Below are positions 23,564 to 43,728 of a stretch of 43,960 nt of DNA, piece after piece; positions within the stretch are counted from its first letter, which is position 1, and every line of letters starts with the position of its first letter. Position numbers and translations under genes: made by a program. Source of the DNA: Bacteroidota bacterium (GTDB lineage: Bacteria; Bacteroidota; Bacteroidia; Palsa-948); assembly GCA_016195025.1 (NCBI GenBank), contig JACQAL010000062.1:1-43960 (forward strand). Reading direction: 5' to 3'. The notes beneath the pieces were generated by a model. The model was not told the DNA's origin and made no database searches. It saw only the letters and a program-made list of their open reading frames with translations.

Positions 23564-26500
23564 TTGAAAACAAAATTACTTTCTCTTTTTATTTTTTACT
23601 ATGTAGGTGCGGGTGCACAAACAAATGTTCCCGGAGGAAATGTATATGGAGCTTGGACGCTTGCTGGCTCTCCGTATAATGTGAGCGGACACATTACTGT
23701 TCCAAAAGACTCTACTCTTACAATACAACCCGGAGTGAATATTGTTTTTCAAGGGCATTATAAATTTAATGTGCGAGGCAGGGTGTTTGCGGCAGGAACA
23801 TCAAGCGATACGGTTGTTTTTACTGCTGCTGATACATCGATTGGATGGTGGGGAATGCGTTATGACAGCATTTTAGTAACCCAAGACTCTTCTCTTTTTG
23901 TTTATTGTAAACTGCAATATGGAAAAGCAAACACCGGAACCGGAAATGATTTGTATGGGGGAGCAATTATGGTAAATAATTTTTCTAAAATCAGAATTGC
24001 AAATTGCATGATTACAAATAATTTCTCTTCCGGAGGAGGCGGGATTTGTTTTAATTCTTCTAATGGCACCATTTCTAACTGTACTGTCAGCAATAATACC
24101 GCCTCGGTTTCTTCCGCCAATTCTAATACTTATTCTTACGGTGGCGGGATTTATTTTAGTTCTTTTTCGGGCACCATCTCTAACTGTACTGTTAGCAACA
24201 ACTCAGTGTTTTCGTCTTCTTCTAATTCTTATGGTTCTTATTCTTATGGTGGAGGAATTTATTTTATAACTTCTTTTTTAGCCACTATCTCTAACTGCAC
24301 CGTTAGCAATAACACCGCCTCTGCTTTTTCTTCTAATTCTCTTTATTCTTCTTCTTATGGTGGTGGGATTTATTTTGATTTAAGTGCCGCATTTCCACCT
24401 CCCACCGGTGGTACTATTACTAACTGCACCATTAGCAACAACACTTGCTCGAATGCTTATTATTCTTATGGCGGAGGAATTTATTTTTCTTCTTGGGCGT
24501 ATTCTAATTTTGCAGGAGGATTTATTACTAACTGTACCATCCAAGACAACTCATCTTCTTCCGGTGGCGGAGGGATTTATTTTGGTTCTTTGCACTCAGG
24601 CCCTGTCATTACTAATTGCATCATTAATAATAACACTTCGCGCTATGGTGCCGGAATTGATTGTAGTTCCTATGGTGGTACTATTACTAATTCCACAATC
24701 AGCAACAATTTTTCTATTTCTTCTTTTTCTTACGGTGGCGGTATTTACGGAGGCATGGATACCATTGCTGACTGTATTATCAGCAATAATTCTTCTTCTT
24801 ACGGTGGCGGAGTTTATTCTTCTTCTGGTGCCATCACAAATTGTGCTATTATTAATAATACCGCATTCAGTTCAAGTGAAGGAGGCGGAGGAATTTATTT
24901 TTTAGGTAGTCCTACAGTTACTAATTGTACCATTGCAAATAATGATGCAACTGGAACAAGCGGAGGAGGTGGAGGATTATTTTTCAAGAATAATTCTGAC
25001 CCGGATTTTATTAATTGTATTCTATATGGTAACACCGCCTCCAGCGGCAATGGAGCAAATATTTATTTATATGATAGTTTGAGCAATCCATCTTTTTCTT
25101 ATTGTGATATTCAGGGAAGCAGCGCGGCTATTTATAATAACTCGGGAACTTATTCGGGTTCTTATACTAACAACATAGATTCTGTTCCTCTTTTTGTTGC
25201 TCCTTCAGCGGGTGCTGGCACAGGTTTCAACGGGCTTATTGCAAACTGGCATCTTCAAACTACTTCTCCCTGTATTGATATGGGAGATCCGAACAACACA
25301 ATCGGTTTTTATCCTGCCAGTGATTTAGGAGGAAATCCACGCGTAGTAGTTTGCAGGATAGATATGGGTGCGTATGAAGATCAAAACGGGCTGCCGTTTT
25401 TAGTTTCACTCTCTATTCAGCAAAATATTTATTGCGTTGGTAATGGCAACGGTGCAGCAACTGTCACAGTAAGTAACGGCACACCTCCTTATACATATAG
25501 TTGGAGCAGCGGAGAAACTACTTCTGCAGTTACAGGCCTTTCAGCTGGAACGTATACAGTTATTGTAACGGATGCAGGTAACTGTTCAAAGACGGGTATC
25601 GTTACCATTACACAACCCAATCTTATTATAAGCATGACATCTGTCCAAACAGCATGTAACGCAAATACAGGAACTGCTTCTGCTTCTCCTTCGGGTGGAA
25701 CTTCACCTTATACTTTTATATGGAACAATGGCCAAACAACTTCAGTGACCACAGGGCTTGGCACAGGAAATTATACCGTTACAATTACGGATGCAAACGG
25801 GTGTACAAAAAATGCAATTGCTTATATTACACCAAAGCCCAGCCCCAATGTAACCACTTCTGCCACTCAAACTAATTGCTCGCCTTCGACCGGAACAGCA
25901 GCAGCCACCGCATTGGGTGGCGCCTCTCCTTATACTTATTTATGGAGCGATGGGCAAACTACTTCGGTGGCAACAGCACTTGCTGCCGGCAGTTATACGG
26001 TAGTTGTAACTGACAGCTATGGCTGTACAAAAACAGCAACTGTTTCTGTTACACAAAAATCTAATCCCAACGTAACTACTTCTACCACTCAAACTAATTG
26101 CTCTTCTCCAACAGGAACAGCGACCGCATCTGTATCTGGCGGCACCTTTCCCTATACGTATTTATGGAGCAACAATGCAACTACTCAGCAAGCAAATAAT
26201 TTGGCAGCAGGAAATTATTCGGTAACAGTAACAGATGCGAATGGCTGTACTTCTTCTGACAGTGTTACAATTTCACAATTTCCTTCAGTTCTTACAAATC
26301 AAAATGTTTCCATTTGTAATGGTGATAGCATCTTGGTTGGAGGTAATTATCAAACAACAGCAGGAACATACAATGATACTTTGCAAACGGTGAATGGGTG
26401 TGATAGTGTTATTGTAACAGCACTTACAATAAATTCCTTACCATCCGTTTCCCTTTCCCTCAACCCCGATACAGTTTGTATAAGTTCAGGAGCATACGCC

Positions 26501-26938
26501 CTTACAGGAGGTTCACCAAACGGAGGGATTTATTCAGGAGCAGGAGTAAGCGCTGGAAATTTTAATCCAAGTATGGCAGGCAATGGATTGCACAATATTA
26601 TTTACACCTACACCGATGCAAACAACTGTACCAACAGCGATACCGCGCATGTATTTGTAGATTTATGTACGGGAGTGCAAACTTATTTTAATAGTGAAGA
26701 AATTATTATTTCTCCCAATCCAACAACCGGAATTTTTACCATTCAATTTGCAGACCCTTCGACTTTGCTCAAGGTGACAGCCGTTGAAATTACAAATCTC
26801 TTGGGAGAAAAAATTTACTCATCGGTAATAAATTCAAGCAAGTCAGAAATTGATTTAAGCAAAACCTCCAAGGGAATTTATTTCATTAAAGTAATTTCAG
26901 AGGCGGGAGTTGTTACAAGAAAATTAATTCTCCAGTAA
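23564..26938 (+). CDS. Large secreted beta-helix protein with SprB-type repeats and T9SS domain
   Basis: The 1124-residue protein begins at TTG (MKTKLLSLFIFYYVGAGAQ, a signal peptide). Residues about 40-600 form a right-handed parallel beta-helix. At least ten serine-rich rungs carry the motifs GGGIYF and TISNCTVSNNT, as in Bacteroidota surface adhesins. Four SprB-type repeats follow (about residues 625-910), each with a PYTYxW segment, an xGTYTVxVTDA segment and an NGC motif. SprB is the gliding adhesin. A T9SS type A sorting domain starts at about residue 1046 (IIISPNPTTGIFTI). No catalytic residues are evident. A surface adhesin or glycan-binding role is inferred. Confidence 0.88.
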   Translation: MKTKLLSLFIFYYVGAGAQTNVPGGNVYGAWTLAGSPYNVSGHITVPKDSTLTIQPGVNIVFQGHYKFNVRGRVFAAGTSSDTVVFTAADTSIGWWGMRYDSILVTQDSSLFVYCKLQYGKANTGTGNDLYGGAIMVNNFSKIRIANCMITNNFSSGGGGICFNSSNGTISNCTVSNNTASVSSANSNTYSYGGGIYFSSFSGTISNCTVSNNSVFSSSSNSYGSYSYGGGIYFITSFLATISNCTVSNNTASAFSSNSLYSSSYGGGIYFDLSAAFPPPTGGTITNCTISNNTCSNAYYSYGGGIYFSSWAYSNFAGGFITNCTIQDNSSSSGGGGIYFGSLHSGPVITNCIINNNTSRYGAGIDCSSYGGTITNSTISNNFSISSFSYGGGIYGGMDTIADCIISNNSSSYGGGVYSSSGAITNCAIINNTAFSSSEGGGGIYFLGSPTVTNCTIANNDATGTSGGGGGLFFKNNSDPDFINCILYGNTASSGNGANIYLYDSLSNPSFSYCDIQGSSAAIYNNSGTYSGSYTNNIDSVPLFVAPSAGAGTGFNGLIANWHLQTTSPCIDMGDPNNTIGFYPASDLGGNPRVVVCRIDMGAYEDQNGLPFLVSLSIQQNIYCVGNGNGAATVTVSNGTPPYTYSWSSGETTSAVTGLSAGTYTVIVTDAGNCSKTGIVTITQPNLIISMTSVQTACNANTGTASASPSGGTSPYTFIWNNGQTTSVTTGLGTGNYTVTITDANGCTKNAIAYITPKPSPNVTTSATQTNCSPSTGTAAATALGGASPYTYLWSDGQTTSVATALAAGSYTVVVTDSYGCTKTATVSVTQKSNPNVTTSTTQTNCSSPTGTATASVSGGTFPYTYLWSNNATTQQANNLAAGNYSVTVTDANGCTSSDSVTISQFPSVLTNQNVSICNGDSILVGGNYQTTAGTYNDTLQTVNGCDSVIVTALTINSLPSVSLSLNPDTVCISSGAYALTGGSPNGGIYSGAGVSAGNFNPSMAGNGLHNIIYTYTDANNCTNSDTAHVFVDLCTGVQTYFNSEEIIISPNPTTGIFTIQFADPSTLLKVTAVEITNLLGEKIYSSVINSSKSEIDLSKTSKGIYFIKVISEAGVVTRKLILQ

Positions 26939-35282: not shown

Positions 35283-38200
35283 ATGAAACAAGCATTACTC
35301 TTCTTACTGGCACTGCCAATTCTCGCTTTTTCAGAAAACAAAATTTCTTCTCCGGAAAACTACAGCGCTTATTTTGAAAAAGCGTACCAGCAGTATCCTT
35401 CCATTCCGCGCGGAGTGCTGGAAGCGGTGGCATACACGAACACGCATATTCAGAACATCACGCATAACCCGGGCGATGCGGAGAGTTGCGCGGGGCTTCC
35501 TTATTATTATGGCGTGATGGGACTGGTGAAAGACGGGAAAAATGTTTTCAGAAACAATCTGGTAACTGTTTCGCAGATGTCGGGCATTGCAGTGAACGAT
35601 ATGCTGAATGACGCGGAAAAAAATATTCTCGCCTATGCAGCGGCTTATGCGCAGGCGCAGAACAACTTTTCACCCAACGGCAATCTTCCCAATGGAAAAT
35701 CAACAGTGGAATCACAACTTCCGGTGATTATTTATTTAAGTGAACTTCCGAACAGCGGTTCTTTGCAGGATAATTTTACGATGAATACTAATTTATATTC
35801 CGTTTTGAATTTTCTCAATGATAAAAATAATTCGAAGCAATATAATTTTCCGCAGTACAGCATCAATCTTGAAAAAGTTTTCGGCAAAGAAAATTACAAA
35901 GTGCTTTCTTCCTCTCATATAAAAGCAAGCGATTATAAAATAACCAATGAAAACGGAAATGAATATGAATATGATAATTCTATTCCGCAGAATAATTTGA
36001 AAAATGATTTGCCGGTAACCCAATCCACCGATTATGCTCCTGCCATCTGGAATGCGGCTGCAAGCTGCAATTATACGGTGGGAAGAAGTGTTGCAATTTC
36101 TGCCGTAGTTATTCACGACACGGAGGGAAGTTACGCAGGCGCGATTGCCTGGTTTCAGGATTGCTCGTCCTCTGTTTCTGCGCATTATGTGCTGCGCTCT
36201 TCCGATGGGCAGGTAACGCAAATGGTGCTGGAAAAAAATAAGGCGTGGCACGTGGGAACAGAAAATGGTTACACCATCGGAATTGAACACGAGGGCTACC
36301 AGGCGAAAACCGGCTGGTACACCACTGCCATGTATAATTCTTCCGCCAATCTTGTAAAAGATATTTGCAACAGCGGCTATGGAATCAATCCCGCCACTTG
36401 CTGGAACGGTCCTTCCTGCAATGGAATCTGCCTCCTCTCCACTTCTTACAGAATAAAAGGCCATCAGCATTATCCCAATTCCAACCACGATGACCCGGGA
36501 CCAAACTGGAACTGGTATACGTATTATAATTTGCTGAACGGTTCTTCGCCTCCGCCCTCTACTGCTCCCGCGAATGATAATTGTTCCGCAGCGCAAACGC
36601 TTACTCCGGGCACAACTTGCGTCAGCACTTCGGGCGATGTATCAGGCGCAACGCAGAGCGGACTTTCAAAAGCAAGTTGCGATGTTTACTCTGGAACTCC
36701 CGCGCTGAAAGATGTGTGGTATAAATTTACCGCCACTGCAACTACGCACACGATAACATTAACTCCCTCATCAGGAATGGATGGCGTTCTTTCTTTATAT
36801 ACTTCCTGCAGCGGAAATCAAATCGGATGTTCAGATAATGGCGGTGGTCCCGGTGGAACGGAAAAAATTTCTGCAAGTGCATTAACGGTTGGCTCCACCT
36901 ATTTCATCCGCGTGTATAGTTATGGTTCATCCACGCCTTCCACTACCACATTTAATATCTGCATAACTGCTCCGCCTGCATCCACTGCTCCTTCGAATGA
37001 TAATTGTTCGAATGCCATTGCGCTCACGCCCAACACCAGTTGTGTTTCCACTTCGGGAACGCTTGCAAATGCAACCGTGAGCGGGCTTTCAAAAGCAAGT
37101 TGCGATGCTTCCAGTTATTCTTCGCTGAAAGATGTTTGGTATAAATTCACCGCCACAGCAACTACGCATACAATTACCTGCACTCCTTCCTCCGGCTTGG
37201 ACGCGGTTTTGTCTTTATATACTTCCTGCAGCGGAAGCCAAATCGGATGTTCGGATAACGGAGGCGGTCCCGGTGGAACGGAAAAAATTTCTGCAAGCGG
37301 ATTAACGGTTGGCTCTGCTTATTATATCCGCATTTATCCTTACGGCTCTTCTTCTCCAACAACGAACACCTTTAATGTGTGCGTAACGGCTCCGTCTTCA
37401 ACTCCGCCACCCGCTGTGAACTGCACCAAAACTTACAAGACCACGATTGAAGGATTTGATGTGTACCAGCATAACTCGGGAGCCATTATGTTCCGCGCCA
37501 AGATGGCGATTGATGCCGATGGAAGCCCGCGCGCTTATGGTCCGAATGATTCGGGTTTGGATTACACCGCCAATGCCGGCTATCCCGGAAACTGGTGGGG
37601 AGTTGTTACCGATTCATACGGCAACCCGATTATTCAAACTTCGAGCGACCCGTATCCGGGATTATATGTTTCCACCACTTCACTTGTGAACAGTGCCTAC
37701 TCTTCCACAAAAACCCAGCACTATGTAAACTCCGAAGTCGTTCCGTTTTTTGTGCTTCCTTCGGCAATTACTTCCATGGGCGTGAAGTTGGGCGATGTGG
37801 CGTATGTGTACAACACTTCGAACGGAAAAAGTTGCTACGCGATTTTTGCCGATGGCGGTCCTTCCGGAAAATTGGGAGAGGGCTCCATTTATCTTGCGAA
37901 TCAACTCGGAATAAATTCCAACGCGCGCACGGGCGGAACTTCATCGGGAATTATTGACTATGTGATTTTCCCGAACTCCGGCTACGGGCAGGGAACCATT
38001 CCCTCTGTTTCACAAATCAACTCCATCGGCTCCACAAAACTGAATGCCATTGGCGGAAGCGGAATTACTTCCTGCATTCCTGCGGCTCCGCCCATTATTT
38101 CCCAAAGAGACGCATCAACTGCTGAAGAAGAAAAAAATTCTCCGGTTGAAGTTGCCGCGGAAAATTCTCTTGTGGTTTATCCGAATCCCTTTGACGGAAT

Positions 38201-38411
38201 TACGCTTCACGGAAAATTTTCGGTTGCCGGTGATAATGCAATGAGCGTAAAAATTTATGACATGACCGGAAGGGAAATTTTCTCCAGGCAACTAATTGTT
38301 TCAGTAGGAGAATTTACGCTTCCGTTTGATGAAAAACTTCAGAATGGAATGTACATTCTGCAGGGAATTGTAAACGATAAATCGTTTACGCAGCGATTGA
38401 TTGTGCGGTAG
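35283..38411 (+). CDS. Multidomain secreted hydrolase: amidase, 2 PPC domains, GH75-like chitosanase, T9SS
   Basis: The 1042-residue protein has a signal peptide (MKQALLFLLALPILAFS). Next is a helical region with PSIPRGVLEAVAYTNTH, reminiscent of a lytic-transglycosylase fold. A zinc-dependent N-acetylmuramoyl-L-alanine amidase domain (Amidase_2) spans about residues 265-415; its metal histidines are in VVIHDTEG (H278) and KGHQHYPNSNHDDPGP. Two pre-peptidase C-terminal domains (about 424-563 and 568-705) share DVWYKFTATATTHTIT. A GH75-type chitosanase-like domain (about 718-930) has IEGFDVYQHNSGA and YAIFADGGPSGKLGEGS. A T9SS tail follows from about 965. It should cut peptidoglycan and possibly a chitosan-like glycan outside the cell. 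GH75 activity is inferred. Confidence 0.85.
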   Translation: MKQALLFLLALPILAFSENKISSPENYSAYFEKAYQQYPSIPRGVLEAVAYTNTHIQNITHNPGDAESCAGLPYYYGVMGLVKDGKNVFRNNLVTVSQMSGIAVNDMLNDAEKNILAYAAAYAQAQNNFSPNGNLPNGKSTVESQLPVIIYLSELPNSGSLQDNFTMNTNLYSVLNFLNDKNNSKQYNFPQYSINLEKVFGKENYKVLSSSHIKASDYKITNENGNEYEYDNSIPQNNLKNDLPVTQSTDYAPAIWNAAASCNYTVGRSVAISAVVIHDTEGSYAGAIAWFQDCSSSVSAHYVLRSSDGQVTQMVLEKNKAWHVGTENGYTIGIEHEGYQAKTGWYTTAMYNSSANLVKDICNSGYGINPATCWNGPSCNGICLLSTSYRIKGHQHYPNSNHDDPGPNWNWYTYYNLLNGSSPPPSTAPANDNCSAAQTLTPGTTCVSTSGDVSGATQSGLSKASCDVYSGTPALKDVWYKFTATATTHTITLTPSSGMDGVLSLYTSCSGNQIGCSDNGGGPGGTEKISASALTVGSTYFIRVYSYGSSTPSTTTFNICITAPPASTAPSNDNCSNAIALTPNTSCVSTSGTLANATVSGLSKASCDASSYSSLKDVWYKFTATATTHTITCTPSSGLDAVLSLYTSCSGSQIGCSDNGGGPGGTEKISASGLTVGSAYYIRIYPYGSSSPTTNTFNVCVTAPSSTPPPAVNCTKTYKTTIEGFDVYQHNSGAIMFRAKMAIDADGSPRAYGPNDSGLDYTANAGYPGNWWGVVTDSYGNPIIQTSSDPYPGLYVSTTSLVNSAYSSTKTQHYVNSEVVPFFVLPSAITSMGVKLGDVAYVYNTSNGKSCYAIFADGGPSGKLGEGSIYLANQLGINSNARTGGTSSGIIDYVIFPNSGYGQGTIPSVSQINSIGSTKLNAIGGSGITSCIPAAPPIISQRDASTAEEEKNSPVEVAAENSLVVYPNPFDGITLHGKFSVAGDNAMSVKIYDMTGREIFSRQLIVSVGEFTLPFDEKLQNGMYILQGIVNDKSFTQRLIVR

Positions 38412-41697: not shown

Positions 41698-43728
41698 ATG
41701 AAAAAATTTTTACCCGTATTCTTCATCGCCCTGAATTTTTTCTTCACCGCAAAATTATTCGCGCAGGATAATGTTGGCATCGGAACCAACACGCCCAACG
41801 CCAGCGCGCTGCTGGAACTTCTTTCCACCAATAAGGGATTGCTGATTCCCAGAGTTCCTCTGCTATCGAACACCGATGTGGTAACTATTCCTTCCCCTGC
41901 GGTAAGTTTACTGGTATATAATACCAATGCCGCTATGGTGAACGGAGGATTAGGTTTCTGGTACTGGGACGGAACACAATGGGTGCAGGCAATTGGTCCT
42001 GCCGGTCCTATGGGCCCGATGGGTCCCACCGGTCCTGCAGGAGCAAACGGAGCCACTGGTCCGCAAGGTCCCACGGGTGCAGCAGGCGCTAACGGAAATA
42101 ATGGAGCAACGGGTCCAACCGGTGATACAGGTCCTGCCGGTGCAAATGGAACTAACGGAACAAATGGAGTAACCGGTCCCACAGGAGATACAGGCCCTGC
42201 CGGTGCGAATGGAACTAATGGAACCAACGGAACAAATGGCGTAACGGGTCCTACCGGTGCAAACGGAACGAATGGAACCAACGGAACAAATGGTACCAAT
42301 GGTACCAACGGAACAAATGGCGTAACGGGTCCTACCGGTGCAAACGGAACGAATGGAACCAACGGAACTAATGGTACCAATGGAACAAACGGAACAAATG
42401 GCGTAACGGGTCCTACCGGTGCAAATGGAACGAATGGAACTAACGGAACAAACGGAACTAATGGCGTAACGGGTCCTACCGGTGCAAATGGAACGAATGG
42501 AACTAACGGAACAAACGGAACTAATGGAACAAACGGAACCAATGGAACTAATGGCGCAACAGGTCCTACCGGTCCTACGGGAGCAAATGGAACCAACGGA
42601 ACAAACGGCACGAATGGAACCAACGGCACAAACGGAACAAACGGAACCAACGGCACGAATGGAACCAATGGCGCAACCGGTCCAACCGGTCCGGTTGGAT
42701 GCGCAACTACAAATTATCTTATAAAATATAACGGAGGCGCAACTTGCAGCCGCTTGTTTGATGACGGAACCTATGCAGGCATAAATCCTACTTACGGTCC
42801 TGTAAATGACTTCTGGACTATTCTGCAAGGAGGCGGTTCATTCGGAACCAATGGCGCATCAAGAGTGTTGGTTGGCTGGTACAGAGGAGCCGATCCCATT
42901 GTTGAGCCCACCAATAATGCAACCGGGTATGTGGGTTATTATGCCGCACCTTTCTTTAACGCATGGTGGGGAATGAATGCCTATAATTACTGGGTGATTT
43001 CCAAGCGTGAACAAAAAAGAAATATTAATTCTGTAAATGACGATGCGGCATTAACGGAATTGGTGATGGAAGACATTGACAAAATAAAACCTTCTTTCTA
43101 TAAATATATTACTGAGAAGGATAATCTTGACAATGATGTAAAATACAGGCACCAGATGCATTTGGGAGTTATTGCAGATGAATCTCCCGATTATATTTTA
43201 GGCGAAGCATTTGATAAAGTAGATATTTATGGAATTGCCACCTTATCATTGGCGGGAGTAAAAAATAACAGGAAAGAAATCAAAGAAATCAAAAGTTATC
43301 TGGGAATGAGTTCCAGCGTGAACGTAAGTGATTTCGGAAATGCTACCCTGAACGGCTCTGAAACATGGATTAATTTCTCTGAGGACTTTGCCAGAAAAAT
43401 TTCTTCCGGCAACTTGCCTGTCATCACGCTTACTTCCAATAATCCGTCTGTAACACTAAGCGTAACGGAGAAGAGCGCGCAGGGATTCAAAGTGGCTGCC
43501 TCCATGGCAACTTCCGATTTATCGGTTGACTGGATTGCAATGGCGAAAGTGAAAACAGAATCCTCACAGGAGAAATCAAATCTTTCTTCGCAGGTTTCAC
43601 CTTACCTGATGGAGCGGCTGCATGTTCCTGCATCCACGAAGAGTTCAATCATCAGCAATCTCGCTTCTTTGAACACCGCATCTCCTGCTGCCAAAGGGGC
43701 GCTGAATTTCGAAAATAGAATTCGCTGA
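41698..43728 (+). CDS. Secreted collagen-like protein with S74-type tail chaperone
   Basis: The 676-residue protein has a signal peptide ending LFAQ. A short head ([20 protein letters not shown]) follows, as in Bacteroidota fibre-like proteins. A collagen-like Gly-X-Y region covers about residues 100-334, mostly GTN triplets with GPTGA modules. The C-terminal part includes an intramolecular-chaperone-like domain (about residues 438-535) starting [15 protein letters not shown], similar to the Ser-Lys region of peptidase S74 tail-fibre domains. There is no T9SS tail, so its export route after the signal peptide is open. It probably trimerises into a surface fibre. A good promoter lies upstream and a strong terminator downstream. 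Confidence 0.88.
41995..42699. repeat. Collagen-like Gly-X-Y coding repeat with 9-, 63- and 81-bp periodicity
   Basis: Most of the region is built of 9-bp GGAACNAAY (GTN) units. A GTAACGGGTCCTACCGGTGC block recurs at 42241, 42322, 42403 and 42466, i.e. spaced 81, 81 and 63 bp. All periods are multiples of nine, so unit gain or loss keeps the frame and the triplet register. Confidence 0.9.

Follow-up and report, generated by a model that had tools for sequence, protein, structure and literature searches.

A T9SS-targeted fusion of Amidase_2 and GH75 domains in Bacteroidota: a candidate bifunctional cell-wall hydrolase

Gene and domain organisation

The window analysed here, a stretch of 43,960 nucleotides that constitutes contig C62 of a 3.5 Mb Bacteroidota genome (G000), carries a gene whose product joins a signal peptide, an N-terminal domain, an Amidase_2 domain, two GBD/PPC domains, a GH75 domain and a T9SS type A tail, in that order (Table 1). 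A previous sequence-only reading had described this locus as a fusion of an amidase and a GH75-like domain in one T9SS cargo, and profile and PDB searches place the amidase, the GBD/PPC domains, the GH75 domain and the T9SS tail in a single protein. By sequence comparison the ORF is real and intact, and no assembly artefact, because a full-length homologue with 70% identity is present in a second genome of the genus (G005).

Table 1. Features of the amidase-GH75 gene in the window
Feature	Residues	Coordinates	Strand	Basis or remark
Whole gene (ATG start)	1042 aa	35283..38411	+	ORF list; profile and PDB sequence searches
Signal peptide, Sec-type, MKQALLFLLALPILAFSEN	about 1-18	35283..35336	+	judged by eye
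N-terminal domain	23-246 (~220 aa)	35349..36020	+	conserved in many Bacteroidota amidases
Amidase_2 (putative zinc ligands H278, H394, D404; putative catalytic E335)	271-407	36093..36503	+	Pfam, homologue alignment
GBD_T9SS_assoc/PPC copy 1	430-559	36570..36959	+	Pfam
GBD_T9SS_assoc/PPC copy 2	about 568-703	36984..37391	+	Pfam; 78% identical to copy 1
GH75 domain, V-Csn type (D744, D746, D857, E866)	about 706-930	37398..38072	+	
T9SS type A sorting domain	965-1042	38175..38408	+	Pfam, NCBIfam

Between the two catalytic domains, Pfam recognises GBD_T9SS_assoc in two stretches (E 1.2e-29), and PPC also matches (E 9.5e-6). The two PPC domains proposed earlier are present, although their description as near-identical was generous for 78% identity. 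The secretion signal is likewise as proposed, since the C-terminus matches both Por_Secre_tail (PF18962, residues 965-1041, E 4.4e-7, above the Pfam cut-off) and the T9SS type A sorting domain TIGR04183 (NCBIfam, E 1.4e-10), and the host genome encodes the T9SS translocon SprA, split over two contigs.

The neighbours of the gene include no wall enzymes. When the window is compared with G005, the gene itself is the sole shared item, the remaining matches being T9SS tails and repeats. Elsewhere in the window there are an ORF of 676 aa with collagen triple-helix repeats (41698-43728, Pfam E 1.4e-35) and a T9SS protein of 1124 aa with SprB repeats and a right-handed beta-helix region (23564-26938).

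The GH75 domain

The assignment of the C-terminal catalytic domain to GH75 was borne out, although not by the expected profile. In the Pfam search, PF07335 (GH75) has no match at E<=1 on the window protein, whereas a phmmer search against the PDB matches residues 732-899 to the viral chitosanase V-Csn (7tvl) with an E of 1.5e-46. Additionally, the homologues L047, L049 and L061 (44-51% domain identity where a value is given) pass the PF07335 cut-off; as they belong to the same alignment, the window domain lies inside GH75 and the miss reflects the reach of the profile. The active-site acids named for V-Csn, D34, D36, D148 and E157 (PMC9485262), correspond to D744, D746, D857 and E866, so that all four are kept. 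Neither of the two outcomes named beforehand as a refutation, a failure to match GH75 or a loss of the catalytic acids, was thus observed.

A structure model of the domain, built on 16 homologues (pLDDT 68), points in the same direction. Its best Foldseek match is V-Csn (E 8e-18, TM 0.70), with an rmsd of 6.6 that stems from the poor prediction of the second subdomain, and the next matches, kiwellins and other double-psi barrels, are far behind. The domain is accordingly modelled as a double-psi barrel, as in V-Csn (PMC9485262). The window domain therefore resembles this soil-phage chitosanase (PDB 7tvl-7tvp; PMC9485262) in sequence, fold and the four acids. By contrast, V-Csn is a phage protein with a single domain, while the window domain shares its polypeptide with an amidase, beta-domains and a T9SS tail.

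The presence of GH75 in a bacterium had been regarded as surprising, on the grounds that the family is best known from fungi. This was overstated: GH75 is already known in bacteria and phages (PMC9485262), annotated GH75 proteins are carried by plasmids of Vibrio, Mesorhizobium and Streptomyces, and it is the bacterial/viral V-Csn type that the window domain most resembles.

The amidase and the N-terminal domain

The Amidase_2 domain was confirmed, with a Pfam E of 2.3e-26 (above the cut-off) and a conserved zinc site. Residues H278, H394, D404 and E335 are invariant across 22 homologues; by analogy with AmpD, we take the first three to be its zinc ligands and E335 its catalytic Glu. The domain thus has the fold family, the zinc-ligand positions and the catalytic Glu position of the N-acetylmuramoyl-L-alanine amidases of AmpD/AmiD type, but it differs from them in being T9SS-secreted, in having its own N-terminal domain and in belonging to a GH75-linked subclade. 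Between the window gene and G005, dN is far below dS both for the amidase (0.16 vs 1.70) and for the GH75 domain (0.13 vs 1.15), which indicates purifying selection on both catalytic domains. High GC3 was also considered as a sign that these two domains had been imported and was discarded, as amidase GC3 also exceeds N-terminus GC3 in the paralogues L063 and L102, which lack GH75.

The suggestion of a transglycosylase-like N-terminus found no support. Profile searches with this domain gave no Pfam and no PDB match, the Pfam search of 22 members with the N-terminal domain found no SLT (PF01464), hhalign gave a probability of 0.5% when run against 19 sequences from this class that contain SLT, and, by eye, the ES motif with its catalytic Glu is absent at the equivalent place. 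Lytic transglycosylase identity was consequently rejected. A structure model of the N-terminus plus amidase was set aside (three alignment rows, pLDDT 40).

Within the class, this N-terminal domain and the amidase commonly occur together as a module, which about 20 of 60 sampled relatives carry with other C-terminal parts. For instance, a paralogue in the window genome itself (G000:C48) carries CUB domains on its C-terminal side. Such Bacteroidota T9SS amidases have the same N-terminal domain, Amidase_2 and T9SS tail as the window protein, but no GH75 and other modules towards the C-terminus.

Recurrence of the amidase-GH75 pairing

Relatives of the GH75 domain in public MAGs are nearly all from Bacteroidota. 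The search for further cases of the pairing, within one protein or as linked genes, covered Bacteroidota genomes together with the scanned viral and genome collections. The fused form is found in G000 and G005, which share a genus, and also in a genome of another family, G072, where the protein has 1257 aa and includes fn3 domains. As separate T9SS genes, the amidase and GH75 are contiguous in the MAG SW_35 and lie within one cluster in G103, from a third family; in both cases, the amidase and GH75 subtypes are those of the fusion.

In a tree of 32 amidases, the GH75-associated amidase domains from these five genomes fall into one clade (98/98). Three of the five (G000, G072 and G103) have, in addition, an ordinary member of the module that lies outside this GH75-linked clade. 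By contrast, a single clade is rejected for the five N-terminal domains (AU p=0.002), and the N-terminus of G072 groups with a paralogue from its own genome (96/90). The different histories of the two halves explain why the G072 row was unresolved in a combined tree and became resolved in separate trees per half. Since the amidases are one clade and the N-termini are not, the catalytic pair seems to travel together; it has probably spread jointly between lineages and been spliced behind resident N-terminal domains.

The fusion could be one of many shufflings of T9SS-cargo domains, brought about by chance and devoid of joint function, and the discordant N-terminal history shows that parts have indeed been shuffled. 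We give this explanation hardly any weight, as the linkage is repeated in both fused and unfused form, the catalytic residues are kept and dN is much lower than dS in each of the two catalytic domains. The protein is more coherent than a chance fusion.

An enzyme for remodelling the bacterium's own cell wall would fit the wide distribution of the N-terminal domain plus amidase module in the class, and also the sporadic GH75 genes of green sulfur bacteria. However, the T9SS tail would take the protein across the outer membrane, and away from the peptidoglycan of the cell itself, and the window-type GH75 is itself sporadic, being present in 13 of 395 genomes of the class; own-wall remodelling is thus improbable.

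Gene context and substrate

The main rival to a joint substrate is independent action of GH75 on chitosan. Here, the bacterium would scavenge mixed remains, the amidase acting on peptidoglycan and GH75, separately, on chitosan from fungal walls or arthropod debris, so that the two enzymes would share a secretion chassis but not a substrate. In favour of this reading, V-Csn and its fungal GH75 counterparts, which have the same acids, are chitosanases (PMC9485262), and most Bacteroidota GH75 genes, including most of those coding for T9SS proteins, have no amidase beside them. On the other hand, one amidase subtype accompanies GH75 across families, and the cluster of G103 is made up of peptidoglycan-enzyme types, with no chitin or chitosan enzymes detected in it. 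Mixed-remains scavenging is a serious contender, although we consider it less probable than joint action on peptidoglycan.

In G103, a single genome and the one source of this peptidoglycan-type context, GH75 belongs to a group of five genes (L051:4951-16177, in G103:C62; also in L035) that code for an amidase, a 351-aa ORF with no family assigned, an NlpC/P60-like protein, GH75 and a SpoIID-domain protein. Each of the four enzymes has fn3 domains and a T9SS tail. The SpoIID domain (PF08486) is found in a T9SS protein of 950 aa with an E of 4.8e-7, above the cut-off, while the NlpC/P60-like protein (725 aa, T9SS) has a DCSGFV motif and a weak match below the cut-off (E 0.026); these two proteins share a 476-aa C-terminal chassis with 67% identity. 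Amidase, SpoIID and NlpC/P60 all count as types of peptidoglycan enzyme, and SpoIID cuts glycan strands that have been stripped of peptides. With such neighbours, the GH75 of G103 probably takes part in peptidoglycan breakdown, and the gene context points more to bacterial peptidoglycan than to fungal walls as the target. More generally, the pairing of the two enzymes, fused or as neighbours, suggests that they have a wall substrate in common, which is probably bacterial peptidoglycan.

In the literature, we found no GH75 with demonstrated peptidoglycan cleavage, and the characterised GH75 enzymes act on chitosan. "Chitosanase-like" effectors of T6SS were also considered and set aside; the one described in detail is lysozyme-like and does not belong to GH75.

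Proposed function and significance

We propose, with a probability of roughly 0.55, that the window protein is a secreted bifunctional cell-wall hydrolase that degrades the walls of prey or dead bacteria, with the amidase and GH75 both acting on peptidoglycan. After Sec export, the protein would cross the outer membrane through the T9SS and be surface-anchored or released. The zinc amidase would then cut the MurNAc-L-alanine bond, leaving glycan strands without stem peptides, and GH75, as an inverting endo-glycosidase with a preference for glucosamine, would cut bare and/or N-deacetylated stretches of the aminosugar backbone. The beta-domains (GBD/PPC) may serve as spacers or binding modules. 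A joint function is argued for by the intact catalytic residues of both domains, the repeated linkage and the purifying selection. What we infer is that the enzymes are active, that peptidoglycan is the substrate of both, that the cuts follow this order and that the target is prey or dead bacteria and not the cell's own wall. Predation or scavenging on walls, as also put forward in the sequence-only reading, is likewise something that we infer. As a precedent, the predator Bdellovibrio uses on its prey a glycosidase, DslA, that is specific for GlcN-containing (deacetylated) peptidoglycan (PMC7511926), but DslA has a lysozyme-superfamily fold unrelated to GH75 and no fused amidase.

GH75 in bacteria and phages was already known, and Amidase_2 is common among the T9SS cargoes of the class. 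Their combination appears to be new as an arrangement of known families, as we found no report of both together. At present, GH75 enzymes are filed as chitosanases, and the GH75 genes of soil phages are read as carbon metabolism. The recurring pairing with an amidase, once beside SpoIID and NlpC/P60-like genes, poses a testable question, namely, whether this branch of GH75 cleaves peptidoglycan. A bolder and rather doubtful extension is that the V-Csn branch is basically a hydrolase of peptidoglycan glycan, acting on strands denuded by amidases or N-deacetylated, for which chitosan would be a surrogate substrate. On that view, the phage "chitosanase" auxiliary metabolic genes would be cell-wall lysins and not carbon-metabolism genes. 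If this branch of GH75 does cut peptidoglycan, many genes of bacteria and phages would need a changed annotation and the window protein would be a new bifunctional wall hydrolase. If it does not, the protein would be a mixed-substrate scavenging enzyme.

GH75 in other genomic settings

GH75 was also observed in several other arrangements. In family f84, proteins of about 290-318 aa (L125-L134) are found in 11 of 61 sampled genomes. This family corresponds to green sulfur bacteria, on the evidence of the FMO protein, which was present in each of three genomes examined for it; these are phototrophs that are not known as scavengers and have no obvious use for chitosan.

A second form of GH75, of 273-288 aa and with a lipoprotein-like N-terminus, is encoded at L053:9234-11080, L036:5806-7662, L059:8981-10792 and L060:787-2649. 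In each case the gene that follows directly encodes a related T9SS protein, about 330 aa long, so that the two form a conserved gene pair; besides its tail, this partner matches no Pfam family.

Among named phage records (INPHARED), GH75 has no match at E 1e-5. In other viral sequences, one GH75 gene immediately precedes a terminase large subunit, with a weakly Rz-spanin-like ORF (E 0.0098) nearby (L083:6748-10060), and another adjoins tail genes (L073:7914-10100); such sites are more usual for lysins than they are for genes of metabolism. Finally, two further fusions were seen, one to an alpha/beta hydrolase (DUF900) in Candidatus Uabimicrobium amorphum (L047:4906-6579) and one to S-layer homology domains in a Bernardetia MAG (L049:4945-6591).
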